Positions 2,913 to 54,067 of a DNA stretch of 64,000 nucleotides are shown one piece after another. Within the stretch, counting starts at the first letter, position 1. Each line of letters starts with the position of its first letter. The DNA is from Stenotrophomonas aracearum. Lineage in GTDB: Bacteria > Pseudomonadota > Gammaproteobacteria > Xanthomonadales > Xanthomonadaceae. The stretch is taken from NCBI RefSeq assembly GCF_031834615.1, contig NZ_CP115543.1, positions 445,001 to 509,000 on the forward strand. The letters are read 5' to 3'. The notes under the pieces were generated by a model that saw only the letters and a program-made list of their open reading frames with translations, made no database searches and was not told the origin of the DNA. Both the position numbers and the translations under genes were made by a program.

Positions 2913-3031
2913 TCCCTGGTGAAATTAGCGCTGTGGAACCACCCGATCCCATCCCGAACTCGGAAGTGAAACGCAGCTGCGCCGATGGTAGTGTGGCTCA
3001 AGCCATGCGAGAGTAGGTCATCGCCAGGGTT
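2913..3031 (+). rRNA. rrf: 5S ribosomal RNA, copy 1
   Basis: 5S rRNA about 170 nt downstream of 23S. The terminal helix is formed by CCCTGG at 2914 and CCAGGG ending at 3029, and the conserved loop CCGATCCCATCCCGAACTC is present. A Rho-independent terminator follows within 12 nt. It differs from copy 2 by a single base near its 5' end (ATTAGCG here, ATCAGCG in copy 2). Confidence 0.97.
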
Positions 3032-3040
3032 TACACCCCG

Positions 3041-3072
3041 AAAACCCCGCTGCACATGCAGCGGGGTTTTCC
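3041..3072 (+). terminator. Rho-independent terminator after 5S copy 1
   Basis: A 13-bp stem (AAAACCCCGCTGC pairing with GCAGCGGGGTTTT) with a 4-nt loop, followed by a T-rich run. It lies 10 nt after 5S copy 1, so transcription must partly read through it if copy 2 is made from the same promoter. Confidence 0.9.
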
Positions 3073-3163
3073 TTTTTTTGCAGACCCCTGGTTTTCGCTA
3101 CGGGTCGGCTTCTCGGAAGAGACCCCTGCTGAGCTGGCGCATGCATGCGCTGCTCCAACCGTC

Positions 3164-3282
3164 TCCCTGGTGAAATCAGCGCTGTGGAACCACCCGATCC
3201 CATCCCGAACTCGGAAGTGAAACGCAGCTGCGCCGATGGTAGTGTGGCTCAAGCCATGCGAGAGTAGGTCATCGCCAGGGTT
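3164..3282 (+). rRNA. rrf: 5S ribosomal RNA, copy 2 (tandem duplicate)
   Basis: A second complete 5S gene 251 bp after the first. The duplication begins about 11 nt upstream of the mature gene (CTCCAACCGTC is present before both) and extends through the bases after it. Only one base differs within the RNA. The terminal helix and loop sequences are intact, so it should fold normally. It has its own terminator at 3290-3320. Confidence 0.95.
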
Positions 3283-40618: not shown

Positions 40619-41914
40619 TCACCCCACGTTCTTGCGCGGCAACAGGTAAATCACCCCACCCACCGCAAACGCGATCAACGCCGCCGCGATGTTCTGCCAG
40701 CTTGCACTGGCGAACAGCGCCAGGCACAGCACCAGCGCCAGGATCGGAATCAACGGGCCACCGGGGAGCTTCAACGCACCGGGACGATCACGGAACCGAC
40801 GCGCCAGCACGATCACCGCCGCCGCCGTGCCGATGTAGGCGAACAACCGCGTGGTCATCGACAACAGCGCCAGCTGCACGAACGAACCCGACAACGCCAG
40901 CACCAGCGCGATCAACCCCTGGGTGATGATCGCCGCGGCCGGCGTGCGGAAGCGCGGGTGCACCTGCGCCAGCAGCTTCGGTCCATAGCCATCACGGGCC
41001 AGTGCGAACAGGAAGCGCGGGCCCATCATCATCGTGTTGCTGTTGGTGCCCAGGATCGAGATCGTCGCGCCCACGGTCAGGATCAGCGCCAGCGCCTCAC
41101 CGCCGAACCCTGCCGCCGCATCCGCCAGCGGCGTGGCCGAATCGGCCAGGCCCGGCAGCGTCCCCTGCGCGATGAACTGCACCGCGCCATAGATCACCGT
41201 CACCGTGATGATCATCGTGATCAGCGCGAACGGAATGTCCCGGCGCGGGTTGCGGTACTCGCCGGCCGCCGCCGGAATGTTCTCGAACCCGGCATACGCA
41301 TACAGCAACAACAGTGCCGCCTCCCCCATGCGTTGCAGGTCATGCGGGTCCGGGCGGGTGCCCGAGAACGCCAGGTCCGTATCCACATAGAACGCGCCGA
41401 TCGCCACGAACAGCAGCAGCGGCAGCATCTTGCCGATCACCAGCACGATCCCGGTGCGTGCGGCCGAGCGCACCCCGGCGACGTTCACGGCGGTCAGGAA
41501 GCCCAGCGACGCCACGATGATCAGCACCCGGCCCAGGTCGTGCCCGGCCCACGGCCAGAACCGCGCCACGGCGTCGGCCAGTGCATTGCTCAGCGCCGCC
41601 GCCGAGCTGATCCGGGTCAGCCAGATCATCCAGCCGATCTCGAACCCGGCAAAGCGTCCGAACGCTTCGCGCGCATACAGGTAGCTGCCACCGGGCTCGT
41701 CGAAGTAGCTGGCGGCCTGCGCGTAGCACAGCACCAGCAGCGCCACCACGATGCCCGCCGCCACCACGCCCCATAGGCTGAACGGCCCCAGCAGGAGCAC
41801 CGTAGCCGCCGGCAGCAGGTAGATGCCACTGCCGATCACATCGTTGATCGACAGCCCCACGATCTGCCAGCGGCTGACCGCGCGCTCCAGTTGCGGTTCG
41901 GGCGTGGCGCTCAT
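40619..41914 (-). CDS. APC family amino acid permease
   Basis: 431 residues, twelve membrane helices. Conserved beginning of the first helix: IVGLSINDVIGSGIYLLPAAT, and later FGGEALALILTVGATISILGTNSNTMMMGPRFLFALARDG. The last gene of the leftward operon; its start overlaps the L,D-transpeptidase-like gene by four bases (translation coupling). In this setting the likely cargo is an amino acid or short peptide released from peptidoglycan, which is inference. Confidence 0.93.
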   Translation of the reverse strand: MSATPEPQLERAVSRWQIVGLSINDVIGSGIYLLPAATVLLLGPFSLWGVVAAGIVVALLVLCYAQAASYFDEPGGSYLYAREAFGRFAGFEIGWMIWLTRISSAAALSNALADAVARFWPWAGHDLGRVLIIVASLGFLTAVNVAGVRSAARTGIVLVIGKMLPLLLFVAIGAFYVDTDLAFSGTRPDPHDLQRMGEAALLLLYAYAGFENIPAAAGEYRNPRRDIPFALITMIITVTVIYGAVQFIAQGTLPGLADSATPLADAAAGFGGEALALILTVGATISILGTNSNTMMMGPRFLFALARDGYGPKLLAQVHPRFRTPAAAIITQGLIALVLALSGSFVQLALLSMTTRLFAYIGTAAAVIVLARRFRDRPGALKLPGGPLIPILALVLCLALFASASWQNIAAALIAFAVGGVIYLLPRKNVG

Positions 41915-42705
41915 TCAGCGGCCCCGGCCAGCGGCGGCAGCTGCCAGTCGTGCTGCACGCGCTGGTACTGCGCGCGCGGCAGCAGCACCAACACCGGCTT
42001 CTGCGCCCGGTCCAGCCACTTCAGCAGCGCGGCCATGTGCTCGGGCTGCATCGCGGTGCAACCGGCAGTCGCCTCGCCCGGCGTGCGCCACAGGTGCGCG
42101 AAGATGCAGCTGCCCCGGCGCGGTTCCGCGCCCGGGTTGTGCTCGATCACGAAGCCCTGGCGGTACCGCACGTCACCCTTGTTGTGCAGGTCCAGCCGCA
42201 TCGGCTCGGTGGAACCCTCCACCGCCTCGGCGCCGACCACCTCGGCGTCCACGATGCGGTTGTAGTACTTCGAATCCGGCACGTCCATGCAGTAGCTGCT
42301 GTCCAGCATCGGCTGGTAGGGCAGGGACGTGGTGGCCTTGTCGGCATAGCCGAACGCAGTGCCGATGCTGAAGATGCCGGCCGGGCTGCGCCCATCGCCT
42401 TCCTGCTTGACCGGTTCGCCCGGCTGCTGCGGTCCGTCGCCGTTCGCGGCCGGCACCAGGCCCACGCCCCAGGCGCTGCCGCTGCGGCCCACCGACACCG
42501 CGAACGCTTCGCCCTCCGCCTTCCAACCCGTGGCCGTGCGCGAGTACGCCTGCAACCGGCCCTGGGTGGCATCCCAGCCCTCGGTGGTAACCACGATCAT
42601 CTGCCGGTGGTCCTGCAGCGGGGCCACCGCCGGGGTCAGCGCGGCAACGGGCAGGGCGCTGGCAACCAGCACCACGGCAACAGCGGAACGCAGCAACGAC
42701 AGCAT
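41911..42705 (-). CDS. L,D-transpeptidase (YkuD family) homologue
   Basis: 264 residues, exported (signal ending LPVAALTP). The YkuD catalytic signature is RRGSCIFAHLWRTPGEATAGCTAM with His and Cys in the expected order. YkuD enzymes exchange or trim the third-position peptide of murein; a carboxypeptidase activity is possible. ATG 42705 gives a clean signal. Placed 17 bp after the RpiR gene in a tight operon devoted to murein peptides. Confidence 0.9.
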   Translation of the reverse strand: MLSLLRSAVAVVLVASALPVAALTPAVAPLQDHRQMIVVTTEGWDATQGRLQAYSRTATGWKAEGEAFAVSVGRSGSAWGVGLVPAANGDGPQQPGEPVKQEGDGRSPAGIFSIGTAFGYADKATTSLPYQPMLDSSYCMDVPDSKYYNRIVDAEVVGAEAVEGSTEPMRLDLHNKGDVRYRQGFVIEHNPGAEPRRGSCIFAHLWRTPGEATAGCTAMQPEHMAALLKWLDRAQKPVLVLLPRAQYQRVQHDWQLPPLAGAAE

Positions 42706-42722
42706 CGGGCAGACTCCGGCAA

Positions 42723-43571
42723 TCAGGTATCGATCAGGTGTTCGATCCGTTCCAGGTTCACCCCGAGCTGGCGGTGGCGGTCCGGGTTGGCGTGGCAGAG
42801 CAGCACGAACACGAAGTCCAGCAGCGACTGCAGGGCAGAACGGTACAACAGTTGCGCCACGTGCGGCGCCGGGTCGTGCGCGCACACCACCAGCGCGCCG
42901 TCGGCGTGCGCGCGCAGCGGGTTGGCGCTGTGCCGGGTGATCGACACCACCTTGCCGCCCATGTCCTGGAATTGGCGCGAGAGCTGGAACAGCTGCGGCA
43001 GCTTGCCGAACTCGGAAAACACCAGCAGCACATCGCCCGGGCGCGCGGCCGACAGGTTGGCCATCATCAGGATCGGGTCGGCGTGGTGCACGGTGAGCAT
43101 GCCCAGCAGCGAAAGCCGCATGGCGAATTCGCGCGCATACAGCCCATCGTCGCCCAGCCCGTACACGAACAGCTTGGGCGCGTCGTCGATCAGCCGCACG
43201 ATCGCTTCCACGTCCGCCTGCGGGTTGGCCAGCCGGGTTTCCTCGTCGGCCGCCGTGCGGCTCAGGCGCAGGCGTTCGGCCAGCTGGTCGTAATCGTTGG
43301 CCGGGCCGGCGGTTGGCGGACTGCTACCACCCTCATTGCCGGCACGGGCGACCGCCTCGCCGATGGAATACTTCAGGTCCGGATAGCCCTTGAAGCCCAG
43401 CTTTTGGCTGAACTTGACCACGCTGGACTGGCTGATCCCCAACGCGCTGGCCAGCTGCTGCGAAGAGTAGTCGCGCAGCAGGTGGGCGTTGTCGAGGATG
43501 AAGTCGGCAATGCGGCGTTCGATCGCCGACATGTGGTCACGCTCGGAGCGGATTTTCACCAGGGGCGGCAT
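42723..43571 (-). CDS. MurR/RpiR family transcriptional regulator
   Basis: 282 residues. N-terminal HTH_6 domain (MSAIERRIADFILDNAHLLRDYSSQQLASALGISQSSVVKFSQKLGFKGYPDLKYSIGEAV) and a C-terminal SIS domain (KLFVYGLGDDGLYAREFAMRLSLLG, GDVLLVFSEFGK) that binds a sugar phosphate or other small ligand. MurR itself senses N-acetylmuramic acid 6-phosphate, so a murein fragment is a plausible ligand. Lies in the middle of the operon it probably controls, 7 bp after the epimerase gene. Candidate target: palindromes at 46156-46200. Confidence 0.93.
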   Translation of the reverse strand: MPPLVKIRSERDHMSAIERRIADFILDNAHLLRDYSSQQLASALGISQSSVVKFSQKLGFKGYPDLKYSIGEAVARAGNEGGSSPPTAGPANDYDQLAERLRLSRTAADEETRLANPQADVEAIVRLIDDAPKLFVYGLGDDGLYAREFAMRLSLLGMLTVHHADPILMMANLSAARPGDVLLVFSEFGKLPQLFQLSRQFQDMGGKVVSITRHSANPLRAHADGALVVCAHDPAPHVAQLLYRSALQSLLDFVFVLLCHANPDRHRQLGVNLERIEHLIDT

Positions 43572-43578
43572 GCGCTCT

Positions 43579-44685
43579 TCACCATGTGGGGGGCTTCAAC
43601 ATCTCCAATCCTCGCACTTCGGTGATGCCCAATCCCGGCGCATCGCTGATGGTGATCTCGGACTCGTTGAAATGTACCCCGCCTGTGACCGGATTGAACT
43701 GCCCCAATGATGGCCCGTCCAGGTCCACCTTGGTGATGACCTCGCTCTTGGCCACGGCCAGGTGCACCGCCGCAGCCACGCTGATGCTGGACTCGATCAT
43801 GCAGCCGATCATGCACGGCACCCCGTAGATGGCGGCGATGTCGGCAATCCGGATCGCGTTGGAGAGCCCACCGGTCTTCATCAGCTTGATGTTGATGATG
43901 TCCGCCGCGCGCTGCTGGATCAGGTCGAACACCTGGCCCGGGTTGAACACGCTCTCATCGGCCATCACCGGTGTATTGACCCGGTCGGTCACGTACTTCA
44001 GCCCGCTGATGTCGGCCGCCTTCACGGGCTGTTCCAGCAGTTCCAGCACCACCCCGGCGTCTTCCAGGGTGCGCATGGCGTGCACCGCCTGCTTGGCGGT
44101 CCAGCCCTGGTTGGCGTCCAGGCGAAGCAGCGCCCGGCCCTGCACCGCCGCGTGGATCGCCTTGACCCGCTCGATGTCCAGCCCGATGTCCTTGCCGACC
44201 TTGATCTTCAGCGACTCGAAGCCGCGGTCGATGGCCGACAGCGAATCGGCCACCATCTTGTCGATGTAGTCCACGCTGATGGTGATGTCGGTGGTGATCA
44301 CCGGATCGCCACCACCCAGCATCTGGTACAGCGGTGCGCGGTGCAGCTGCGCCCACAGGTCGTACACCGCGATTTCCACCGCCGCCTTGGCGCTGGTGTT
44401 GCGCTCCATCGACGACTGGATCAGCGCGCAGATGCGGTTGAGGTTGGCCACCTCCTGGCCGATCAGGCGCGGCTTGATGAAGCGGTCGATGGCTTCGACG
44501 ATTGAGCCGTGGGTATCGCCGGTGATCACTGCCGTGGCCGGTGCTTCACCGTAGCCGGTGTGGCCGCTGTCGGTGCGGACCAGCACCACCACGTCTTCCA
44601 CCGTGTCCACGGTGCGCAATGCGGTCTTGAACGGGGTCTTCAGCGGCACGCGCAGCATGCCAAGTTCAATGTCGGTGATTTTCAT
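43579..44685 (-). CDS. Dipeptide epimerase (L-Ala-D/L-Glu type), enolase superfamily
   Basis: 368 residues. Enzymes of this type turn L-Ala-D-Glu from murein into L-Ala-L-Glu, which peptidases can use. MR/MLE catalytic parts are present: SLKIKVG (KxK), LRLDANQGW, LLEQPV, VMADESV and NIKLMKTGG (general-base Lys). Start 44685 (MKITDIELGM) overlaps the stop of the upstream gene as TGATG. It follows an NlpC/P60 gene as in Bacillus ykfC-ykfB (different order), which supports the substrate. Exact dipeptide specificity cannot be read from sequence. Confidence 0.92.
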   Translation of the reverse strand: MKITDIELGMLRVPLKTPFKTALRTVDTVEDVVVLVRTDSGHTGYGEAPATAVITGDTHGSIVEAIDRFIKPRLIGQEVANLNRICALIQSSMERNTSAKAAVEIAVYDLWAQLHRAPLYQMLGGGDPVITTDITISVDYIDKMVADSLSAIDRGFESLKIKVGKDIGLDIERVKAIHAAVQGRALLRLDANQGWTAKQAVHAMRTLEDAGVVLELLEQPVKAADISGLKYVTDRVNTPVMADESVFNPGQVFDLIQQRAADIINIKLMKTGGLSNAIRIADIAAIYGVPCMIGCMIESSISVAAAVHLAVAKSEVITKVDLDGPSLGQFNPVTGGVHFNESEITISDAPGLGITEVRGLEMLKPPTW

Positions 44686-46127
44686 CAAGGAGTCTGGGGC
44701 CGGATGCGCTGGATGTTGGTGATGCGGTCGATGTAACTGACGGTGTCGCTGGCCATCATCGGCTGCAGCGGGGTCACCGATACCCCATTGAGATGCGCCT
44801 GCACGCGCGTGCCGCCCGGTCCGAACCAGCTGCCGCCGGAGGTGTCGTGGATCATCCACGTCTGCCCGTCCAGCTGGCCGATGGTGACCATCACGTGGCC
44901 CGGGATGTAGACCAGGTCGCCCACCTGCAGCTGCTGCACGGCGGCGTTGCGCTTGGCTTTGTCGTCCGTCGCGGTGAAGGCGATGCGGTCCAGCGCCGGG
45001 CTCACCGCCTGCGCGCTGGTGTTGCGCGGCATCAGCACGCCGAAGCTGCGGTAGATCTCCGAAACGAAGCCGCTGCAGTCGCGGGTGTCGTAGGAATGGC
45101 CCCAGCCGTAGCGCTCGCCCAGGAACTTGAAGGCCTGGGTAAGCAGGTTGCGCGGGGTCAGCGGCAGGTAGTCGGCGGCGGTGTCCTGCGAGCGCGGCAG
45201 CAGCGCCGGCACCAGTGCCAGCGAGCCGTCGGTATTGCGCACCGGCAACTGCACCACGTGCGCGGCATGCGCCTGCTGGCCGTTCACGGTCTGCGCCTGG
45301 GGCCAGTCGGCCAACACCGGCAGCCGCACGCCCATGTCCAGCTGCAACCGCGACACGCGCGGTTCTTCCGGGGTGAAGGCGGTGAACGCGGTCGCGCCGG
45401 TCACCACCCGATACGGGCCCTTCTGGCCGTAGCCGAGCACCGTCGCGGCATCGCCGATTCCCACGAAGCGCTTTTCGATCCAGGCGGAATAGCGCTCGCT
45501 GGTGATGAACAGCCACTTCCCGTCGGCGCTCTCATGCAGCACCGCCACCGCGTCGCCCGGGAACAGCGCGGACTCCTGGAAGCGGTCGATATCGGTATCG
45601 CCCTGCGAGGTGAACACCCGCAGCGCGGTCGGGAACGCGCGCAGGTCGGCGCGGTGGGTGACCAGTCCGTACTGCAGCGGGCGTGCGGCGGGAATCGCAT
45701 CCAGTGCCAGGTTGGCCTCGATGCTGGCGCGTGCCGTTGCGGCAATCGGCTGGCTGTCCACTCCAAACAGTGCCTTTTCCGGCCAGCGCGAAAGCTTCTG
45801 GATGTCGGCCAGCACCTGCGAACGAGGCAGCGACGCCGGCAGCGCCCGCAGGTCGTGAATGGAGTCGTCTTCGGCCCGCATGCGCGCGTTCTGCGCGTCA
45901 ATGCCGGCCCGGTCCAGGATCACCCGGTCCGCGTCGGGCAGCCGCGCCGCCCAGAACGCCGGGTCCAGGTAGGCCTCGCGCAGCCCGACCACGCCGCCGA
46001 AACCACTGGGGGTCGCAACCGGGGCCTCGGCCCAGGCGGCAGTGCCGGGCAGGGCCAGCATCGCTGCCAGCACTACGCGCGCCGGCCACGCAAGCCGCGC
46101 AGGGCGGCGGGGGGGAGCCTGGATCAT
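44685..46127 (-). CDS. NlpC/P60 peptidase with SH3 domains (YkfC-like)
   Basis: 480 residues, exported (signal ending GTAAWAEAP). A middle part with SH3-like segments (GDAVAVLHESADGKWLFITSERYSAWIEKRFV) is followed by the NlpC/P60 domain: YDTRDCSGFVSEIYRSF (Cys), YIPGHVMVTIG (His) and WMIHDTSG. Such enzymes cut gamma-D-Glu-meso-DAP in free peptides. ATG 46127 is preferred; the longer frame begins only at TTG inside the regulatory palindromes. First gene of the leftward operon. Confidence 0.92.
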   Translation of the reverse strand: MIQAPPRRPARLAWPARVVLAAMLALPGTAAWAEAPVATPSGFGGVVGLREAYLDPAFWAARLPDADRVILDRAGIDAQNARMRAEDDSIHDLRALPASLPRSQVLADIQKLSRWPEKALFGVDSQPIAATARASIEANLALDAIPAARPLQYGLVTHRADLRAFPTALRVFTSQGDTDIDRFQESALFPGDAVAVLHESADGKWLFITSERYSAWIEKRFVGIGDAATVLGYGQKGPYRVVTGATAFTAFTPEEPRVSRLQLDMGVRLPVLADWPQAQTVNGQQAHAAHVVQLPVRNTDGSLALVPALLPRSQDTAADYLPLTPRNLLTQAFKFLGERYGWGHSYDTRDCSGFVSEIYRSFGVLMPRNTSAQAVSPALDRIAFTATDDKAKRNAAVQQLQVGDLVYIPGHVMVTIGQLDGQTWMIHDTSGGSWFGPGGTRVQAHLNGVSVTPLQPMMASDTVSYIDRITNIQRIRPQTP

Positions 46128-46155
46128 GGAGCGGTCATCCTCCTCGGAATCGTCA

Positions 46156-46200
46156 GGAATATTTATTCCTTTTTTCAGCGAAAGCAAGAATAAATTATTG
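46156..46200. promoter_or_regulatory. Two AT-rich palindromes in a divergent promoter region (candidate RpiR operators)
   Basis: GGAATATTTATTCC at 46156-46169 is a perfect inverted repeat, and GAATAAATTATTG at 46188-46200 is a second, imperfect one. The centres are about 31 bp apart, close to three helical turns. They stand in 132 bp between two divergent operons, in a genome of high GC where such AT runs are rare. The RpiR-family regulator of the leftward operon is the obvious candidate binder. Confidence 0.6.
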
Positions 46201-46259
46201 ACCCCCTGTCAGGCCCGTGTTACACAGCGATTACCACCCGCACGTTGGGAAGTGTCGCT

Positions 46260-47744
46260 GTGGATCTGCCCGTTAGCAAACCGCGTTCTGCCTCGACCTT
46301 CGCCCGTCGCGCCGCCACGGCGTGCCTGCTGCTGGGCCTGGCGTCGTTGCAGGCGCCGGTGCTGGCCCAGGACGCGCTGATCGCGCAGATCGACCAAGGC
46401 CAGTTCGCTGCGGCGGAAGCCACCATCACCGAACGGCTGGCAGACCCTGCGCTCAGCGCCGAACAGCGCGACGCCTATGCCTTCCAACGCGAACGCATGC
46501 GCCGCATGCGACTGGACTTCAGCCTGGACGAAGCGCAGGCGAAGACGCAGCTGCGCAAGCAGATTCCCGACCTGCGCGACGACGAATTCGCGCGCTGGGA
46601 CGCGGCCGGCCTGATCGAACACCTCGACATCGATGGCCAGCGCCGTTATTTCAAGCGCGCGCCGTCCAATCTGTTCCGGGTCAGCGCTGAAGCACGTGCA
46701 CGGCGCGCACCGAATGTGCCGCTGCCCACCGAGGGCCCTTACGAAAGCCTCGCCCCGCATCACCATGAAGTAATTGCTGCTGCAGACGCCAGCGGCGCCA
46801 CCAGCCTGGTGCCGCGCCGGGTCGAGGTCAGCCAGTCGATCACGGTCAAGCCCGATGCCGTGCCCGCCGGCGAACTGCTGCAGGCGTGGATTCCGTACCC
46901 GCGCGCCATCGCCGGCCAGCAGGAAGACATCACCTGGATCGCCCCGCAGCAGGGCGCGGTGATCGCCCCGGAATCGGCCCAGCAGCGCACCGTGCACCTC
47001 CAGCAGAAGGCGGTGGCCGGAAAGCCGACCCGCTTCGAGATCCGTTACGCGGTCACCGTGTACGCGCGCCACATCGACATCGACCCGGCCAAGGTCATCG
47101 CCACGCCGAACGATCCGGCACTGCAGCCCTACCTGGCCGAGCAGCCGCCGCACGTGGTGTTCACCCCGGCCCTGCGCGCGTTCTCGCAGCGCGTGGTGGG
47201 CACTGAAACGAACCCGTACGCCATCGCGCAGAAGCTGTTCGACGCCGTCGACCAGATCCCTTGGGCCGGCGCGCGCGAGTATTCCACCATTTCCAACATC
47301 AGCGACTACGCCCTGCACGCCGGCCATGCCGACTGCGGCCAGCAGACCCTGTTGCTGATCGCCCTGCTGCGCCTGAACGGCATTCCGGCGCGCTGGCAGT
47401 CGGGGATGGTCTATTCCGACGACGCGGTGGGCTACAACAACCTGCATGACTGGGGTGCGCTGTACCTGGCCCCGTACGGCTGGGTGCCGATGGACGTCAC
47501 CACCGGCCGCCTGCAGAGCAATGAGCCCGCCCTGCGCGACTTCTACTTCGGTGGACTCGACGCCTACCGCATCGCCTTCAACGACGATTTCCAGCAACCG
47601 TTCCAACCGGCCAAACGGCATCCGCGCTCGGACACCGTCGACTCGCAACGCGGCGAAGTCGAATGGGCCGGCGGCAACCTGTACTTCGATCAATGGAACT
47701 ACGACTTCCAGTCGCACGTCGTGCCGGCGAAGTCCACGCACTAA
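46260..47744 (+). CDS. Exported transglutaminase-like (papain-fold) protein
   Basis: 494 residues. Signal ending PVLAQDA. The transglutaminase-like core has HAGHADCGQQTLLLIALLRLNGIPARW (Cys), NNLHDWGALYLAPYGWVPMDVTTG (His, Asp). N-terminal 300 residues include a helical region and a beta domain. GTG 46260 is chosen because GGGAAG lies nine bases upstream; TTG 46245 is also possible. In bacteria this fold often hydrolyses peptide or amide bonds, so it may trim murein peptides before uptake. First gene of the rightward operon. Confidence 0.88.
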   Translation: MDLPVSKPRSASTFARRAATACLLLGLASLQAPVLAQDALIAQIDQGQFAAAEATITERLADPALSAEQRDAYAFQRERMRRMRLDFSLDEAQAKTQLRKQIPDLRDDEFARWDAAGLIEHLDIDGQRRYFKRAPSNLFRVSAEARARRAPNVPLPTEGPYESLAPHHHEVIAAADASGATSLVPRRVEVSQSITVKPDAVPAGELLQAWIPYPRAIAGQQEDITWIAPQQGAVIAPESAQQRTVHLQQKAVAGKPTRFEIRYAVTVYARHIDIDPAKVIATPNDPALQPYLAEQPPHVVFTPALRAFSQRVVGTETNPYAIAQKLFDAVDQIPWAGAREYSTISNISDYALHAGHADCGQQTLLLIALLRLNGIPARWQSGMVYSDDAVGYNNLHDWGALYLAPYGWVPMDVTTGRLQSNEPALRDFYFGGLDAYRIAFNDDFQQPFQPAKRHPRSDTVDSQRGEVEWAGGNLYFDQWNYDFQSHVVPAKSTH

Positions 47745-47786
47745 TCAGCACCATCACCATTTCACCCTTGAAGGAGAGAGCAGGGA

Positions 47787-50700
47787 ATGAAAGCGAACGG
47801 TTTGAAGCGGGCGGCGCTGTGCGTCGCGTTGGGAGCGTGTCTGGGCAGCCTCGTGCCCACCGTGGCATTCGCGCAGGCGGTCAGCGGTGCCGTGGCCGGT
47901 CGTGCCAGCGCCGGCGACCAGATCACCGTGGTCAGCACCAGTACCGGGCAGACCCGCACGGTCACCGCCAGCGCCGACGGCACCTATCGCCTCGGCCAGC
48001 TGCCGGTGGGCAACTACCAGCTGCAGCTCAGCCGCGACGGCCAGAACCTCGGTGACCCGGTCGCCGTGAGCGTGGCCATCGGCGGCACCACCACGGTCAA
48101 CCTCGGCAGTGGCGGCGGCGTAGTCAACCTGGACGCACTGCAGGTGGTCGGTACGCGCGTGGTCAACCGGGTGGACGTGTCCACCACCGAGACCTCATTC
48201 AACGTCAACCGCCAGGAGCTGGAACGCCTGCCGGTGGCGCAGGACCTGTCCGCGGTGGCGCTGCTCGCCCCCGGCGTGGTCGGCGGCAACTCCACCTTCG
48301 GTGGCCTGTCGTTCGCCGGTTCCTCGGTGGCCGAGAACGCAGTGTTCATCAACGGTCTCAACGTCACCGACATGTACACCCGGCGCGGCTTCTCCAGCGC
48401 ACCGTTCGCGTTCTTCAACGAGTTCCAGGTCAAGACCGGCGGCTACTCGGTGGAGTTCGGCCGTTCCACCGGCGGCGTGATCAACGCCGTGACCCGCTCG
48501 GGCAGCAACGAGCTCAAGGGTGGCATCGAAATCACCGCCGAACCGAGCGCATGGCGCTCCAGCGGGCGCGACCACTTCCACCGCGACGGCACCCCGCATT
48601 CCTACGCCAGCCGCGACGACAGCTCCTTCTTCAAGACCAACGTGTGGGGCTCCGGCGCGCTCGTGCAGGACCGCCTGTTCCTGTTCGCGATGTATGAAGA
48701 TCGCAACGACAGCGGCCACAACACCTCCAACGACGCCCTGACCTGGTTCAAGAACGAGGCCGACAACGGCTTCTGGGGCGCCAAGCTCGACTGGAACATC
48801 ACCGACAACCACAGCATCTCGCTGCTGGGCTTCTCCGACGAAGGCGACGTCACCAACGGCTCCTACAACTACGACTGGGACGCGAACGAGATCGGCCAGT
48901 GGGGCGGCGATTCGGTCACCGAGACCGGCGGCCGCAACTACTCGGCCACCTATACCGGCCACTTCGGTGAAACCTTCACCGCGCGTGCCATGGTCGGCCA
49001 GAACAACCAGCGTGCCTTCACCAGCTCCTCGCTCGACGAAGCCTGCAGCCCGGTGTTCACCGACGCCAGCTACGCCTCGCGCCTGTACAAGCTCAACGGC
49101 CTGCGCCCGGGTTGCCACCCGACCGGCGCCGCCGTGGCCGAGCGCGACGACACCCGCGACGTGGCCCGCCTGGACTTCGAATGGCAGCTCGGCCGCCACC
49201 TGCTGCGCTTCGGCGTGGACCGCGAGCTGATGACCACCGAGCAGTCCACCCGCTACCCGGGTCCGACCCAGCTCAGCTACACCGCCTACGTCGCCCGCCC
49301 GGGCGATGAAGTGTGGGACGGCGCCAACGCATTCGTACCGCCGGGCGTCACCGAGATGCTGCGCGGCCGCAACCGCGTGTCCGGCGGCACCTTCGAAACC
49401 GAAGCCAACGCGTTCTACCTCGAAGACATCTGGAACATCACCCCCAACCTCATGCTCAACCTGGGCGTACGCTGGGACCGCTTCGAGAACCGCACCGCCG
49501 ACGGCGACGCCTTCATCAAGATGGACGACCTCATCGCGCCGCGCGTGGGCTTCTCCTGGGACGTGAAGGGTGACGCCACCACCAAGCTGTTCGGTAACGC
49601 CGGCCGCTATTACCTGCCGGTCACCAACAACATCAACGTCAACTTCGCCGGCGGCCTCACCGACGAGTACTCCTACTTCGTCCTCGACGGTTGGCAGCAG
49701 CAGGCCAACCCGGTCACCGGCGCGCCGTACGCGGCGCCGATCATCGGCCAGCAGATCGGCCCGGTCGACACCCGCATGAACACCGGTGCGGCCGACCTGC
49801 GCCAGAGCGTGGATCGCGACCTCAAGGCGGTCTACCAGGACGAGTACATCCTCGGCTTCCAGAGCATGATCAACCAGGCCTGGTCGTGGGGCGTCAACGC
49901 CACCTACCGCACCATGGACCGCGCGCTGGACGACATGCGCCTGAACTACACCCCGTGCGGCCCGACCGGCACCACCCTGTGGCCGATCGCCAACCCGGGT
50001 GAGAACCTGACCATCTGGGGCGACTCCAGCATCGGCTGTGCCACCGAAGGCTGGATCACCATCGACACCGCCAACAGCGGCTACCGCAAGGGCGGCAGCG
50101 GCGAAGTGGTCGGCTATTCCAAGCCCAAGCGCACCTACAAGGCGCTGGAATTCCAGATCGACCGTGGCTGGGACGAGAAGTGGCTGTTCAACGCCTCCTA
50201 CCTGTGGTCGCGCAGCGACGGCAACTTCGAAGGACCGGTCAACTCCGATACCGGCTATGGCGACACCGGCATGGTCCAGCACTGGGACCACCCGTCCAAC
50301 AACGAACGCTATGGCGTGCTGTTCAATGACTTCCGCCACCAGTTCAAGTTCCGCGCGGCCTATGCGCTGAATGAAATGTGGTCGTTCGGCTCCACCCTGC
50401 AGGTGATCTCCGGCGGCCCGGTCACCGCCTTCGGCGTGATGTGGCCCGGCGACACCGTGGCCGGCGGCAGCACCTCCAACGAAAGCGGCGGCGGTGGCAC
50501 CGGCTGGCTGTGCGTGGCCAACTGTTCCGGCTCGTACGACCAGCGCCAGTTCGAATACACCCCGCGCGGGGCGTACGGTCGCCTTCCATGGACTTGGACC
50601 ATGGGCGCCAACGTCACCTGGCGCCTGCCGGTGGAGGGCATCGACCTGAGCGTGCGGCTCTCGGTGTTCAACCTGTTCAACAACCAGACCGTCATCAACG

Positions 50701-50813
50701 TCCACCAGCGCTACGAAGCCCAGCCGGGCCAGTACCGCGAGAACACCTTCAACACCGGGACCCGCTGGCAGGCCCCGCGCTACACCCAGCTGATGGCGAC
50801 CTGGAGCTTCTGA
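47787..50813 (+). CDS. TonB-dependent receptor (Oar-like, carboxypeptidase-regulatory domain)
   Basis: 1008 residues. After the signal (ending VAFAQAV) comes a carboxypeptidase-regulatory-like domain (residues 30-100), a TonB box-like segment (LDALQVVGTRV), a plug and a 22-strand barrel ending QLMATWSF. AAGGAGAGAG lies before ATG. Outer-membrane active uptake with the TonB system. Its ligand is unknown; genes around it point to peptidoglycan peptides. Lies 42 bp after the transglutaminase-like gene. Confidence 0.93.
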   Translation: MKANGLKRAALCVALGACLGSLVPTVAFAQAVSGAVAGRASAGDQITVVSTSTGQTRTVTASADGTYRLGQLPVGNYQLQLSRDGQNLGDPVAVSVAIGGTTTVNLGSGGGVVNLDALQVVGTRVVNRVDVSTTETSFNVNRQELERLPVAQDLSAVALLAPGVVGGNSTFGGLSFAGSSVAENAVFINGLNVTDMYTRRGFSSAPFAFFNEFQVKTGGYSVEFGRSTGGVINAVTRSGSNELKGGIEITAEPSAWRSSGRDHFHRDGTPHSYASRDDSSFFKTNVWGSGALVQDRLFLFAMYEDRNDSGHNTSNDALTWFKNEADNGFWGAKLDWNITDNHSISLLGFSDEGDVTNGSYNYDWDANEIGQWGGDSVTETGGRNYSATYTGHFGETFTARAMVGQNNQRAFTSSSLDEACSPVFTDASYASRLYKLNGLRPGCHPTGAAVAERDDTRDVARLDFEWQLGRHLLRFGVDRELMTTEQSTRYPGPTQLSYTAYVARPGDEVWDGANAFVPPGVTEMLRGRNRVSGGTFETEANAFYLEDIWNITPNLMLNLGVRWDRFENRTADGDAFIKMDDLIAPRVGFSWDVKGDATTKLFGNAGRYYLPVTNNINVNFAGGLTDEYSYFVLDGWQQQANPVTGAPYAAPIIGQQIGPVDTRMNTGAADLRQSVDRDLKAVYQDEYILGFQSMINQAWSWGVNATYRTMDRALDDMRLNYTPCGPTGTTLWPIANPGENLTIWGDSSIGCATEGWITIDTANSGYRKGGSGEVVGYSKPKRTYKALEFQIDRGWDEKWLFNASYLWSRSDGNFEGPVNSDTGYGDTGMVQHWDHPSNNERYGVLFNDFRHQFKFRAAYALNEMWSFGSTLQVISGGPVTAFGVMWPGDTVAGGSTSNESGGGGTGWLCVANCSGSYDQRQFEYTPRGAYGRLPWTWTMGANVTWRLPVEGIDLSVRLSVFNLFNNQTVINVHQRYEAQPGQYRENTFNTGTRWQAPRYTQLMATWSF

Positions 50814-50826
50814 TCGCCGCAGTACC

Positions 50827-50856
50827 GCCGGGCCGCAGGACACGCTGCGGCCCGGC
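50827..50856 (+). terminator. Stem-loop after the TonB receptor gene
   Basis: GCCGGGCCGCAG and CTGCGGCCCGGC form a perfect 12-bp stem with a 6-nt loop. It is followed by ATCTTCTCC instead of a T-tract, so it may be an attenuator or mRNA stabiliser that lowers expression of the hydrolase gene behind it relative to the receptor. Confidence 0.6.
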
Positions 50857-50883
50857 ATCTTCTCCGTTCTGGAATCACCGGAC

Positions 50884-52332
50884 ATGCCCGCGCTCCGCCC
50901 CCTGCTGCTGACCGTTGCACTGGCCGCGTCACTGCCCGCAGCGGCGGCCGAATCGCCTGCGTTTGCGCCCATGCTAGACAGCACCGTCGAGCAGTACCGC
51001 CTGCCTGGCATCGCCATGGCCGTGGTGGAGAACGGCGAGGTCGTGTTCAGCGGCACGCGCGGCAAACGCGGCGAAGCCATCACCCCCGACACGCATTTCA
51101 GGATCGCATCCAACAGCAAGTCCATGACCGCCGCCGTACTCGCACGGCTGGTCGACCGTGGCCGGCTGGCCTGGGACGACCCGGTCATCCAGCACCTGCC
51201 GCAGTTCCGCATGTTCGACCCGTGGGTCACCGAACACATGCAGGTGCGCGACCTGCTCATCCACAACAGCGGCCTGGGCCTGGGCGCAGGCGACCTGATG
51301 CTGTGGCCCGCGCCCAACCAGTACACCCGCGCCGACATCATCGCCGGGCTGGCCCACCTCAAGCCGGTCACCAGCTTCCGCAGCGGCTACGCCTACGACA
51401 ACCTGATGTACGTGGTGGCCGGCGAAGTGGCCGCCGCGGCCGGAGGCAAGCCGATCGACCAGCTGCTGCACGACGAAGTGTTCGCACCGCTGGGCATGGC
51501 CGGATGCCAGGCGCCCGCCGAGCTCACTTCGCTGGCCGCAGGCGGCATCCGCTGCAGCCTGCGCGACATGACCCGCTGGATGCAGGTGCTGTTGGATCCC
51601 ACGCTGGTGCCCGGCTGGCTCAGCGACACCCAGCGCCGCGCGCTGTGGACCGCGCACATGCCGATGCCGCTGGGCGAACGCCAGCGTGCCTGGGACAACG
51701 CGCACTTCTCCGCCTATGGCTACGGCTGGCGTTTGTCGGACCTGGATGGGCAGTGGAAGGTCGCGCATACCGGCACGCTGTCGGGCAGCTATTCCTCGCT
51801 GGCGTTGTTGCCGGACAGGAAGGTAGGCGTGGTGATCCTGATCGACGGCGAAGGCGAGGACGCGCGCACCGTGCTGATGCAGGCGGCGCTGAAGCAGTAC
51901 ACCGCCCCGGAGCAGAAGCAGACGGTGGCCGCGTATGCCGCGCAGTTGAAGGCCGAGCAGGCCAACCGCCGCAACGCAGGCCATGTACGCCCAAACACGG
52001 ATGGGCGTTCCCCGGTAGAGCCACGCCCTGCGTGGCTGCGCGGTGCCACCGGCCTCTACCGCGACCCCTGGCTCGGCCAGGCCCGCCTCTGCCCTGAAAG
52101 CGACCGCCTCCGCTTCACCGTCGACAAATCGCCCACCCTGCGCGGCACCGTCATGCAGCTCGACACCCGCTGGCTGGTGCAGTGGGATACCCTCGGGGCG
52201 GACGCCGAACCCTGGCTGCAGGTTACGCCGGGCACCCCGCCCGCGCTCACCCTGCGCGCGATCGATCCGGACATCGACTTCAGCTATGACTTCCAGGACC
52301 TGCATTTCACCCGCATCGGCGACTGCCCTTAG
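50884..52332 (+). CDS. Beta-lactamase family serine hydrolase
   Basis: 482 residues, exported (signal ending PAAAAESP). All three class C motifs are seen: SNSK (Ser76, Lys79), YDN (Tyr171) and HTG (295). The C-terminal 120 residues form an extra beta-rich domain, as in D-aminopeptidases and related DD-peptidases. Likely works on D-amino-acid peptides from murein. Residues 378-385 (VEPRPAWL) are the translation of a REP palindrome in the linker between the two domains. The stop lies inside the next gene. Confidence 0.9.
   Translation: MPALRPLLLTVALAASLPAAAAESPAFAPMLDSTVEQYRLPGIAMAVVENGEVVFSGTRGKRGEAITPDTHFRIASNSKSMTAAVLARLVDRGRLAWDDPVIQHLPQFRMFDPWVTEHMQVRDLLIHNSGLGLGAGDLMLWPAPNQYTRADIIAGLAHLKPVTSFRSGYAYDNLMYVVAGEVAAAAGGKPIDQLLHDEVFAPLGMAGCQAPAELTSLAAGGIRCSLRDMTRWMQVLLDPTLVPGWLSDTQRRALWTAHMPMPLGERQRAWDNAHFSAYGYGWRLSDLDGQWKVAHTGTLSGSYSSLALLPDRKVGVVILIDGEGEDARTVLMQAALKQYTAPEQKQTVAAYAAQLKAEQANRRNAGHVRPNTDGRSPVEPRPAWLRGATGLYRDPWLGQARLCPESDRLRFTVDKSPTLRGTVMQLDTRWLVQWDTLGADAEPWLQVTPGTPPALTLRAIDPDIDFSYDFQDLHFTRIGDCP
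52015..52037 (+). repeat. REP palindrome inside the serine hydrolase gene
   Basis: The 23 bases are identical to the REP at 8340-8362 (opposite orientation), starting with GTAG and folding on AGCCACGC / GCGTGGCT. Read in frame as VEPRPAWL. Confidence 0.85.
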
Positions 52333-53014
52333 CCTTCTGCTGGCGCTCGCAACCCCGTTGGCGCACGCCCAACCGGTCACCATCGCCCTGGTACGCACCA
52401 CCGACCAGGCCGGCCTGGTCGACATCCGCACCCTCGCGCCGGACATCCAGCTCGACATGCGCTACGCCACGGCCAACAACTTCACTGGCCGCCCGGTTCC
52501 CGGCTACGACGCACCGAATTGCTACCTGCTGCGCCCGGCCGCCGCCGCGCTGGCCAAGGTGGAAGCCGACCTGCGCGAACGCGGCTACGGCCTGCAGCTG
52601 TTCGACTGCTACCGCCCCGCGCAGTCGGTGCGCGCCTTCGTCGACTGGGCCAACGACCCGCTGGAGCAGTCGCGCAAGGCCACCCAGTACCCCAGCCTGG
52701 AAAAGCCCGCGCTGCTGGGCGAGTACATCGCCGAAACCTCCGGCCACAGCCGCGGCGCCACCGTCGACCTGGGCCTGCTCGACTGCCGCCGCGACCCCTG
52801 CACGCCGGTCGACATGGGCACCGACTTCGACTTCTTCGGCCCGCGTGCGCATACCGACGCGCCCGACGTCACCCCCGCCCAGCACCAGAACCGGCACACG
52901 CTGCTGCAGGCCATGCAACGCCGGGGCTTCGCCAACTACCCACAGGAGTGGTGGCACTTCACGCTCAGCCCGGAGCCGGCCCCCGGTACCGCCTACGACG
53001 TGCCGGTGCGCTGA
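52286..53014 (+). CDS. D-alanyl-D-alanine dipeptidase (VanX/DdpX, M15 family)
   Basis: 242 residues, exported (signal ending TPLAHAQ). Zinc motifs: TSGHSRGATVDLGLL (His and Asp) and EWWHF (Glu, His). DMRYATANNFTGRPVPGY and LQLFDCYRPAQSV are typical. Cuts D-Ala-D-Ala. ATG 52286 overlaps the hydrolase gene by 47 bp in another frame; earlier in-frame methionines do not give a signal peptide. With no vancomycin-resistance genes near, a role in using murein-derived D-Ala-D-Ala is more likely. Confidence 0.92.
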   Translation: MTSRTCISPASATALSLLLALATPLAHAQPVTIALVRTTDQAGLVDIRTLAPDIQLDMRYATANNFTGRPVPGYDAPNCYLLRPAAAALAKVEADLRERGYGLQLFDCYRPAQSVRAFVDWANDPLEQSRKATQYPSLEKPALLGEYIAETSGHSRGATVDLGLLDCRRDPCTPVDMGTDFDFFGPRAHTDAPDVTPAQHQNRHTLLQAMQRRGFANYPQEWWHFTLSPEPAPGTAYDVPVR

Positions 53015-53057
53015 GCCGCGCCGCTACAATGCGCGCTCACCGAACCTGTGGACCACG

Positions 53058-53435
53058 ATGAACCTGCCGCTGCACTTTGGATTGCTGGGCACGCTGGAAG
53101 CCGGCCTGATCTCCCTGCTGGTCGGCCTGCTGGTGTACGCGCTGTGGCACCGGGTGTGCCGCTGGGCCGGCTGGAGCATGGGCTACGCCATTGGCTGGTC
53201 CTGCGTCATGGCCGTGGTGATCTCGGCCGGCATCGACGCATGGAAGCTGTTCTACATGGGCATCGTGCGGCTGGAGTCGCCGTTCTTCGCGCGCATGTAC
53301 CTCGCCACCATCCATGACCCCAACGAATTGGGCTCCCGCGTGGTGATCGAAGTGGCCGGTGCACTCTTCGGTGTTGCATTGGGCTGGCTTTTGTTCAGTT
53401 CGCGCTCAGGCGAAAAAAACGCCAGCGAAAGCTGA
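53058..53435 (+). CDS. Small inner membrane protein, unknown function
   Basis: 125 residues with three hydrophobic segments (LGTLEAGLISLLVGLLVYALW, GYAIGWSCVMAVVISAGIDAW and VVIEVAGALFGVALGWLLFS). Begins 43 bp after the dipeptidase and so may be the last gene of the rightward operon. No family recognised. Confidence 0.75.
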   Translation: MNLPLHFGLLGTLEAGLISLLVGLLVYALWHRVCRWAGWSMGYAIGWSCVMAVVISAGIDAWKLFYMGIVRLESPFFARMYLATIHDPNELGSRVVIEVAGALFGVALGWLLFSSRSGEKNASES

Positions 53436-53653: not shown

Positions 53654-54067
53654 ATGACTATTCGCAACCGCAAGCCCCTGATCGCCCTGATGATCGCCGC
53701 AGGCAGTGTGCTGGCCATTCCGGCGATGGCCCAGACCGCCCAGCAGAGTGCAGCGCAGGCCCAGACCCAGGCCGCGCAGGCCCAGCAGTCGGCGGCCCAG
53801 GCGAGCGACGCGGCTGACGCGGCAACCGGCGCGGCCGCCCAGGCCTCGCAGGCCAGTGGCGGTGGTGGCCAGACGTGGGCCAGTGTCGACACCGACGGTG
53901 ACGGTGCCATCAGCAAGACCGAGGCCCAGGTGAACGCCGGCCTTGCCCAGGTGTTCGACCAGGCCGACACCAACAAGGACGGCAAGCTTACGCCGGACGA
54001 GTACAAGGCCTACGTGGCCGCCCAGCAGGGTGCCGCCGGCGGTGGCAACGCCGCCCCGGGCCGCTGA
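53654..54067 (+). CDS. Exported EF-hand protein with Gln/Ala-rich segment
   Basis: 137 residues. Signal ending AIPAMAQ, then about 45 residues made almost only of Ala, Gln and Ser, and two EF-hand loops: DTDGDGAISKTE and DTNKDGKLTPDE, each with good calcium ligands. AAGGAGA upstream of the ATG. The Ala/Gln region may form a helical coiled coil. Calcium-dependent periplasmic role is inferred. Confidence 0.88.
   Translation: MTIRNRKPLIALMIAAGSVLAIPAMAQTAQQSAAQAQTQAAQAQQSAAQASDAADAATGAAAQASQASGGGGQTWASVDTDGDGAISKTEAQVNAGLAQVFDQADTNKDGKLTPDEYKAYVAAQQGAAGGGNAAPGR

Follow-up and report, generated by a model that had tools for sequence, protein, structure and literature searches.

Wall-peptide recycling in Gram-negative bacteria is understood from the inside of the cell, through AmpG, Mpp and Opp, and the CUT loci of Xanthomonas are nutrient loci that combine a TonB receptor with a transporter, enzymes and a regulator. 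The N-acetylglucosamine clusters of Caulobacter likewise have a TonB receptor, an inner-membrane transporter, enzymes and their own regulator in each locus (PMC13046382, in excerpt). In Bacillus subtilis, the ykfABCD genes and the dpp system are devoted to murein peptide recycling, and an NlpC/P60-SH3b endopeptidase is encoded beside an L-Ala-D/L-Glu epimerase; this ykfB-ykfC association also occurs in Listeria innocua, Acidobacterium, Solibacter, Bacteroides and Gramella, according to an excerpt of PMC2954226. A similar pair lies in a stretch of 64,000 nucleotides of Stenotrophomonas aracearum (contig NZ_CP115543.1, positions 445,001 to 509,000; hereafter the window), in which ten genes form two divergent operons between positions 40619 and 53435. 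This locus is a conserved, jointly controlled gene set and is probably a regulon for the utilization of murein peptides. It can be viewed as a TonB-fed nutrient utilization locus with a Ykf-like murein peptide pathway inside; the CUT loci and the Caulobacter clusters act on sugars, whereas the window locus would act on the peptide part of peptidoglycan.

Compared with ykf and dpp of B. subtilis, the locus adds a TonB receptor, an RpiR regulator and D-Ala-releasing enzymes. Its endopeptidase looks exported and carries Asn in place of Asp256, and the locus and its relatives use APC, SDF or DUF819 transporters, whereas Bacillus uses an ABC dipeptide system. The parts are already known; their joining with a TonB receptor under one operator is new here, within the open literature. 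Such a joined unit was not found in open-licence literature, which misses most subscription papers; PMC6090828 has a table row naming a dipeptide epimerase.

All ten genes that the initial annotation had proposed from the sequence are there, the tenth as an open reading frame (ORF) without family. The leftward operon (minus strand) encodes an exported NlpC/P60 endopeptidase with SH3b (44685..46127; Pfam SH3_6 and NLPC_P60), the epimerase, of the enolase superfamily (43579..44685; MR_MLE_N/C), an RpiR-family regulator (42723..43571; HTH_6 and SIS), an exported YkuD-fold protein (41911..42705; YkuD, a weak match at 5.5e-6) and, as its last gene, an APC-family inner-membrane permease (40619..41914; AA_permease_2, 3e-48). 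These genes are as tightly packed as had been claimed: NlpC and the epimerase overlap by 1 base, and 7 bp, 17 bp and a 4-base overlap follow up to the permease. The rightward operon (plus strand) encodes an exported transglutaminase-fold cysteine protease (46245..47744, start codon uncertain; Transglut_core, 4.9e-17), an Oar-like TonB-dependent receptor (47787..50813; Plug, CarboxypepD_reg and OMP_b-brl_4), an exported beta-lactamase-fold serine hydrolase (50884..52332; Beta-lactamase, 5e-57), an exported VanX-type D-Ala-D-Ala dipeptidase of family M15 (52316..53014, start uncertain, overlapping the end of the upstream gene; Peptidase_M15, 2.3e-44) and a small membrane protein. On the left strand, ATG start codons were chosen by inspection, and signal peptides were likewise judged by inspection of the N-terminus. 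Signal-peptide-like N-termini were seen in the NlpC, YkuD, transglutaminase, receptor, beta-lactamase-fold and M15 proteins and not in the epimerase and RpiR; the five enzymes are therefore placed outside the cytoplasm and the epimerase inside.

By sequence comparison, the epimerase is nearest, among solved proteins, to the L-Ala-D/L-Glu epimerase of B. subtilis (1jpm/1tkk, E 1.4e-103). The equivalents of Arg24 and Asp321-x-Asp323, which we take to be the determinants of this activity, align with 1jpm/1tkk and are invariant in the ten sequences aligned; the NCBIfam equivalog cut-offs are not reached (252.5 of 500 bits at best). A YkfB-type L-Ala-D/L-Glu epimerase activity can thus be predicted. 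The YRP, HxxxxxxD and EWWH motifs, presumably the zinc and catalytic residues of VanX/DdpX, align between the M15 protein and 1r44 and are conserved across at least 95% of 51 sequences (conservation sets were limited to at least 38% identity and at least 75% length, identical sequences counted once). VanX 1r44 is also its closest solved structure (4.9e-39), and the score for the NCBIfam VanX model is 174 bits, under the cut-off of 320. The YkuD-fold protein shows both the fold and the catalytic-motif Cys. Its profile gave no meaningful match to solved structures by sequence; with its model, Foldseek retrieved Pgp2 with low TM-scores (0.31–0.36), and VIA run over the Foldseek candidates placed Pgp2 and Csd6 first, more than 2 Z ahead of L,D-transpeptidases. 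Pgp2 and Csd6 are L,D-carboxypeptidases, and this activity is predicted for the window protein. The transglutaminase-fold protein (AF2 pLDDT 91.7) matches 3isr (1.6e-15) and PeiP (1.1e-3) in Foldseek, and the best NCBIfam model of the beta-lactamase-fold protein is AmpH (81.6 bits, under the cut-off of 266). The closest solved structure of the NlpC protein is 3m1u (1e-26). A Tyr just before Trp in its SH3b part matches that of YkfC by motif, as defined in an excerpt of PMC2954226, and at least 95% of 110 NlpC sequences retain it. The protein is predicted to work like a gamma-D-Glu-diaminopimelate (DAP) endopeptidase; it is not classed as YkfC, because it has Asn in place of Asp256. The comparison with the Bacillus ykfBC pair made in the initial annotation thus holds for an NlpC-SH3b protein beside a B. 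subtilis-like epimerase and fails at this residue.

Linkage was examined in 151 genomes of the order by combining four single-gene searches (thresholds of E ≤ 1e-30 for the epimerase, 1e-20 for NlpC, 1e-20 for transglutaminase and 1e-15 for M15), two genes being counted as co-located at no more than 20 kb. The epimerase was found in 48 genomes, NlpC in 47, transglutaminase in 30 and M15 in 41. Epimerase and NlpC occur together in 45 genomes and are co-located in 43 of them; the corresponding figures are 27 of 27 for transglutaminase and 35 of 38 for M15. The epimerases of the three genomes lacking NlpC are distant (30–35% identity). Conversely, 27 of the 30 transglutaminase genomes and 38 of the 41 M15 genomes have the epimerase, so that the hydrolases do not stand alone in most genomes (the receptor was not searched genome-wide). 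Five genomes with other parts and without the epimerase were inspected: one has SDF-YkuD-NlpC with a divergent beta-lactamase-fold gene (G090), one NlpC near SDF with a divergent M15 gene (G126), one transglutaminase-YkuD-SDF (G053), and two (G025, G011) only a distant transglutaminase homologue. In a class-wide search, the epimerase profile (E ≤ 1e-100) had hits in 3 of 274 genomes, all in the family of the window. Epimerases also occur in named records of Rheinheimera, Arsukibacterium, Pseudidiomarina and Lacimicrobium; the nearest named records to the window epimerase are those of S. sp. Ste86 (96% identity) and S. rhizophila (95%), its own record being possibly left out.

A second line of evidence comes from the shared promoter, which carries GGAATATTTATTCC at 46156..46169, between the divergent operons and 28 bases ahead of the chosen NlpC start. 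This palindrome, with arms GGAATA and TATTCC around TT, is a putative RpiR operator. In the own genome (a single contig of 4,328,236 bases, or 4.33 Mb), its core GAATA-N2-TATTC is present at this site alone, and a reversed-pattern control gave 0. A chance palindrome was rejected on this control, 0.12 matches being expected in the window with one mismatch. The palindrome lies between NlpC and transglutaminase in ten of ten Stenotrophomonas genomes. With 2 or 3 spacer bases, the core is present in all ten, at a single place in nine and at three in the other (G047); the reversed-pattern control gave 0 in nine and 1 in one (G040). Linkage and this one palindrome together bear out the claim that the two operons are a single unit. 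A looser motif (GAATA-N3/4-ATTC or its complement), a pattern defined after viewing the sequences, was then counted in relatives' promoters. A total of 127 loci were fetched, 47 from the order genomes and 80 named ones, the latter being the best 80 of at least 594, so that close relatives are over-represented; for this count, 7 duplicates, 8 loci in which the contig ends on the RpiR side and 1 lacking an epimerase ORF were removed. The looser motif is present in 70 of 93 unique loci with RpiR and in 3 of 18 without it (Fisher 4e-6, a guide value as the loci are related), where shuffles predict 0.21 and 0.07, respectively. In loci where a DUF819 gene comes first, strict copies lie ahead of that gene (8 loci), and in four Rheinheimera/Arsukibacterium-type loci (L151, L153–L155) the motif is directly ahead of the RpiR gene itself. 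RpiR would be the binder of the palindrome, as this comparison suggests.

The content of relatives' loci was counted in 99 unique loci that have 8 kb of sequence on either side (left from the 127 after removal of 7 duplicates, 20 loci whose flanks were too short and 1 lacking an epimerase ORF), ORFs being called by script and named by blastp against representatives at 1e-8. NlpC adjoins the epimerase on the same strand in 93 loci, and RpiR is found in 81, YkuD in 76 and transglutaminase in 67. An ORF best matching the window's receptor occurs in 68, and any recognized TonB receptor in 83, a count that a receptor of another type, or one cut at the end of a stretch, can escape. A further peptidoglycan-related gene (from the amidase to DAO oxidase set, or alanine racemase) was named in 58 loci. 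Profiles identified in representatives an M19 dipeptidase, an S66 LD-carboxypeptidase, NamZ, a DAO-family oxidase, alanine racemase, LysA (DAP decarboxylase; 449.9 bits, cut-off 297.9) and MurQ (390.2 bits, cut-off 302); an AmpD-like amidase scored 106.7 bits, under the AmpD cut-off of 143, and the relatives' amidases have a lipoprotein-like start on inspection. In a Rhodanobacter locus (L164), the genes of the right side are, in order, transglutaminase, receptor, LysA, M19, beta-lactamase-fold, M15, beta-lactamase-fold and amidase. Combined across different relatives, these genes cover the amide bond, the D-Glu-DAP bond, terminal D-Ala, L-Ala-D-Glu, DAP and N-acetylmuramic acid. These added genes are the strongest evidence on the substrate and, with the B. 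subtilis-like epimerase, the VanX match and a YkuD fold near Pgp2/Csd6, uphold the initial proposal of peptidoglycan peptides. In family f7, an island (L067/L168) has a fuller peptidoglycan catabolic set. Two NamZ genes and MurQ are accompanied there by genes for a BadF-type ATPase, an MFS permease and an EPSP-synthase-family protein, as well as by S66 and a gene weakly resembling Asp/Glu racemases. In the four loci L151 and L153–L155 (Rheinheimera, Arsukibacterium and a gammaproteobacterial metagenome-assembled genome), the epimerase-NlpC unit and RpiR adjoin wall and division genes; RsmH and FtsI were identified beside the unit of L154 (Rheinheimera), and the order of ORF sizes fits a dcw cluster. 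As for transporters, an SDF (Glu/Asp-type) symporter fills the APC slot in many relatives, and counting the own genome's MFS transporters was uninformative. A DUF819 permease lies between NlpC and transglutaminase in 33 of the 99 loci (e.g. 11990–13147 of L044); it is a candidate carrier of murein peptides or DAP.

The following model can be drawn. The TonB receptor would bring peptidoglycan peptides or small muropeptides across the outer membrane. In the periplasm, the YkuD-fold enzyme would take off D-Ala at the L,D bond, as its fold predicts, the VanX-type enzyme would split D-Ala-D-Ala, and the transglutaminase-fold and beta-lactamase-fold enzymes may cleave cross-links or bonds of D-residues. 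NlpC/P60, going by its family, would cleave gamma-D-Glu-DAP and leave L-Ala-D-Glu, and the locus permease would carry the products to the cytoplasm. There, the epimerase would convert L-Ala-D-Glu to L-Ala-L-Glu, which ordinary dipeptidases could then split. RpiR would repress both operons through the single palindrome until an inducer arrives, the tie between the two coming from the comparison of loci.

The receptor has a Plug, a barrel and an N-terminal CarboxypepD_reg domain, and its linkage and the shared palindrome suggest that it may carry murein peptides. Its sequence varies far more than its surroundings. Across 21 Stenotrophomonas loci (two of which, L035 and L095, are apparently the same contig), the epimerase is 89–96% identical to that of the window and the receptor 49–95%. 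Between L036 and L085, the epimerase (99%), NlpC (95%), transglutaminase (98%) and beta-lactamase-fold (95%) proteins are nearly the same, whereas the receptors share 50% identity; at DNA level, in windows of 150 columns, identity is 95–100% in the transglutaminase gene, 45–81% in the receptor and 88–98% in the beta-lactamase-fold gene, apart from one first window, at the alignment edge, with 42%. The same identity step at the receptor is found between L039 and L084 and between L037 and L087, where flanking DNA is mostly 80–99% identical. In the three pairs together, receptors share 49–50% identity and the proteins of flanking genes 87–99%; a control pair with one receptor type remains at 86–96% throughout the receptor. 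The receptor ORF is thus replaced in place, as a gene-sized cassette, between close Stenotrophomonas strains. Substrate range and escape from phages or bacteriocins are two candidate causes.

The pathway also touches the handling of D-Glu. A search of the own genome for glutamate racemase (TIGR00067, E ≤ 1e-10) found no match; of the 151 genomes in the order, 12 have any match and 3 have one over the cut-off, compared with 8 of 14 control genomes. D-Glu synthesis in Xanthomonas and Stenotrophomonas follows the one-way MurD2/MurL route, as described in an excerpt of PMC8788868, in which MurL is ATP-dependent and acts from L to D on a nucleotide precursor. The same bacteria and the same D-Glu problem are concerned here; the window epimerase differs in belonging to the enolase superfamily and, by its relatives, would act on a free dipeptide. 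D-Glu from digested wall would be hard to use without a racemase, a problem that a dipeptide epimerase would solve one step earlier. Because the own genome has no racemase match, the epimerase is probably an exit for D-Glu, and this absence may be a reason for its being kept. G126, a single case among the three genomes whose racemase match exceeds the cut-off, has kept NlpC, M15 and SDF and lacks the epimerase.

Several observations weigh against a receptor-fed murein-peptide regulon as drawn above. The receptor is unrecognized in 16 of the 99 loci, and the inner part can therefore work without it. Four of the five named Xanthomonas loci (L148, L156–L158) show no receptor, transglutaminase or RpiR and retain NlpC, epimerase, YkuD, APC, amidase and M15; the fifth (L099) has the full set. 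The receptor profile matched no solved structure. APC, SDF and DUF819 transporters, as candidate carriers of L-Ala-D-Glu, alternate or combine across loci. At the site of Asp256, which is essential for the specificity of YkfC for a free N-terminal L-Ala (PMC2954226, in excerpt), at least 95% of 110 NlpC sequences have Asn (PRN), as does 3m1u. Beyond Stenotrophomonas, the locus is not marked by the strict palindrome: 103 of the 151 genomes have at least one match, many of them without the locus, and some families have 10–14 matches with similar control counts. The looser motif, besides its after-the-fact definition, has no strict match in 23 of the 93 RpiR loci. RpiR proteins usually sense sugar phosphates, yet the window's unit contains no sugar gene. 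Finally, absence of the racemase does not predict the epimerase, as 100 of 103 genomes without epimerase likewise have no racemase match that reaches the cut-off. Of the 12 genomes with any racemase match, 7 have the epimerase; these 7 are from family f7, and their matches are all below the cut-off.

These points leave room for other explanations. The locus might serve recycling of the own wall, its enzymes recovering periplasmic turnover peptides and its receptor catching at most the cell's own shed fragments. The receptor-less Xanthomonas loci and the L154 unit, which lies with its RpiR beside RsmH and FtsI, agree with this, but an energy-spending TonB receptor for outside uptake is recognized in 83 of the 99 loci, that of the window is under the same single palindrome as the enzymes, and lipoprotein-like amidases and, in one family, NamZ suit the digestion of incoming material; we consider own-wall recycling rather unlikely. 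Less probable still, the receptor and the transglutaminase could import ordinary protein-derived peptides and be merely co-regulated with a murein-peptide operon. To our knowledge, neither Oar-like receptors nor transglutaminase-fold proteases have a known peptidoglycan specificity, and receptor types vary among loci; however, the constant neighbourhood of epimerase and transglutaminase, always within 20 kb in 27 of 30 transglutaminase genomes, speaks against mere co-regulation, and the LysA and M19 genes between receptor and M15 in relatives suit DAP and L,D-dipeptides. A locus for defence or antibiotic stress, centred on the beta-lactamase-fold and VanX-type genes, is suggested by fold names only and is highly improbable, and an antibiotic resistance locus was rejected, as the beta-lactamase-fold protein falls far under every class C cut-off (25 of 46 families shown; 56.1 bits against 415 for the best general class C model), no other vancomycin-resistance-type gene was found among the ten scanned proteins, and the linked genes are catabolic.

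Utilization of murein peptides taken up from outside thus remains the preferred reading. Lysobacter, of the same group, is a known lyser of neighbours, and a receptor-fed unit would make wall peptides of other cells a nutrient in this group. Lysed neighbours, the example given in the initial annotation, are one possible source. Induction of beta-lactamase is AmpG-dependent in Stenotrophomonas, and such uptake could be tied to it. A more specific combined reading, for which we see an even chance, is that the receptor serves specifically to import peptidoglycan peptides across the outer membrane, as part of a catabolic regulon with one operator in the Stenotrophomonas/Rhodanobacter order that is of use because glutamate racemase is absent, and that the receptor ORF is exchanged in place as a cassette between close strains. 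Exchange would then change which neighbours' wall peptides are taken, or evade phages or bacteriocins that use the receptor. The idea of the initial annotation can be tested directly, as the single palindrome, the receptor and the epimerase are separately removable.

The small membrane protein that ends the rightward operon (125 aa; 53058..53435, plus strand) has no Pfam or NCBIfam match; ORFs of similar length come after M15 in Stenotrophomonas loci (a comparison of length only). Behind the locus, a small, exported EF-hand protein is encoded at 53654–54067, at the same position as in Stenotrophomonas loci. Two 5S rRNA genes come after the 23S gene at the window's left end (2915–3280).

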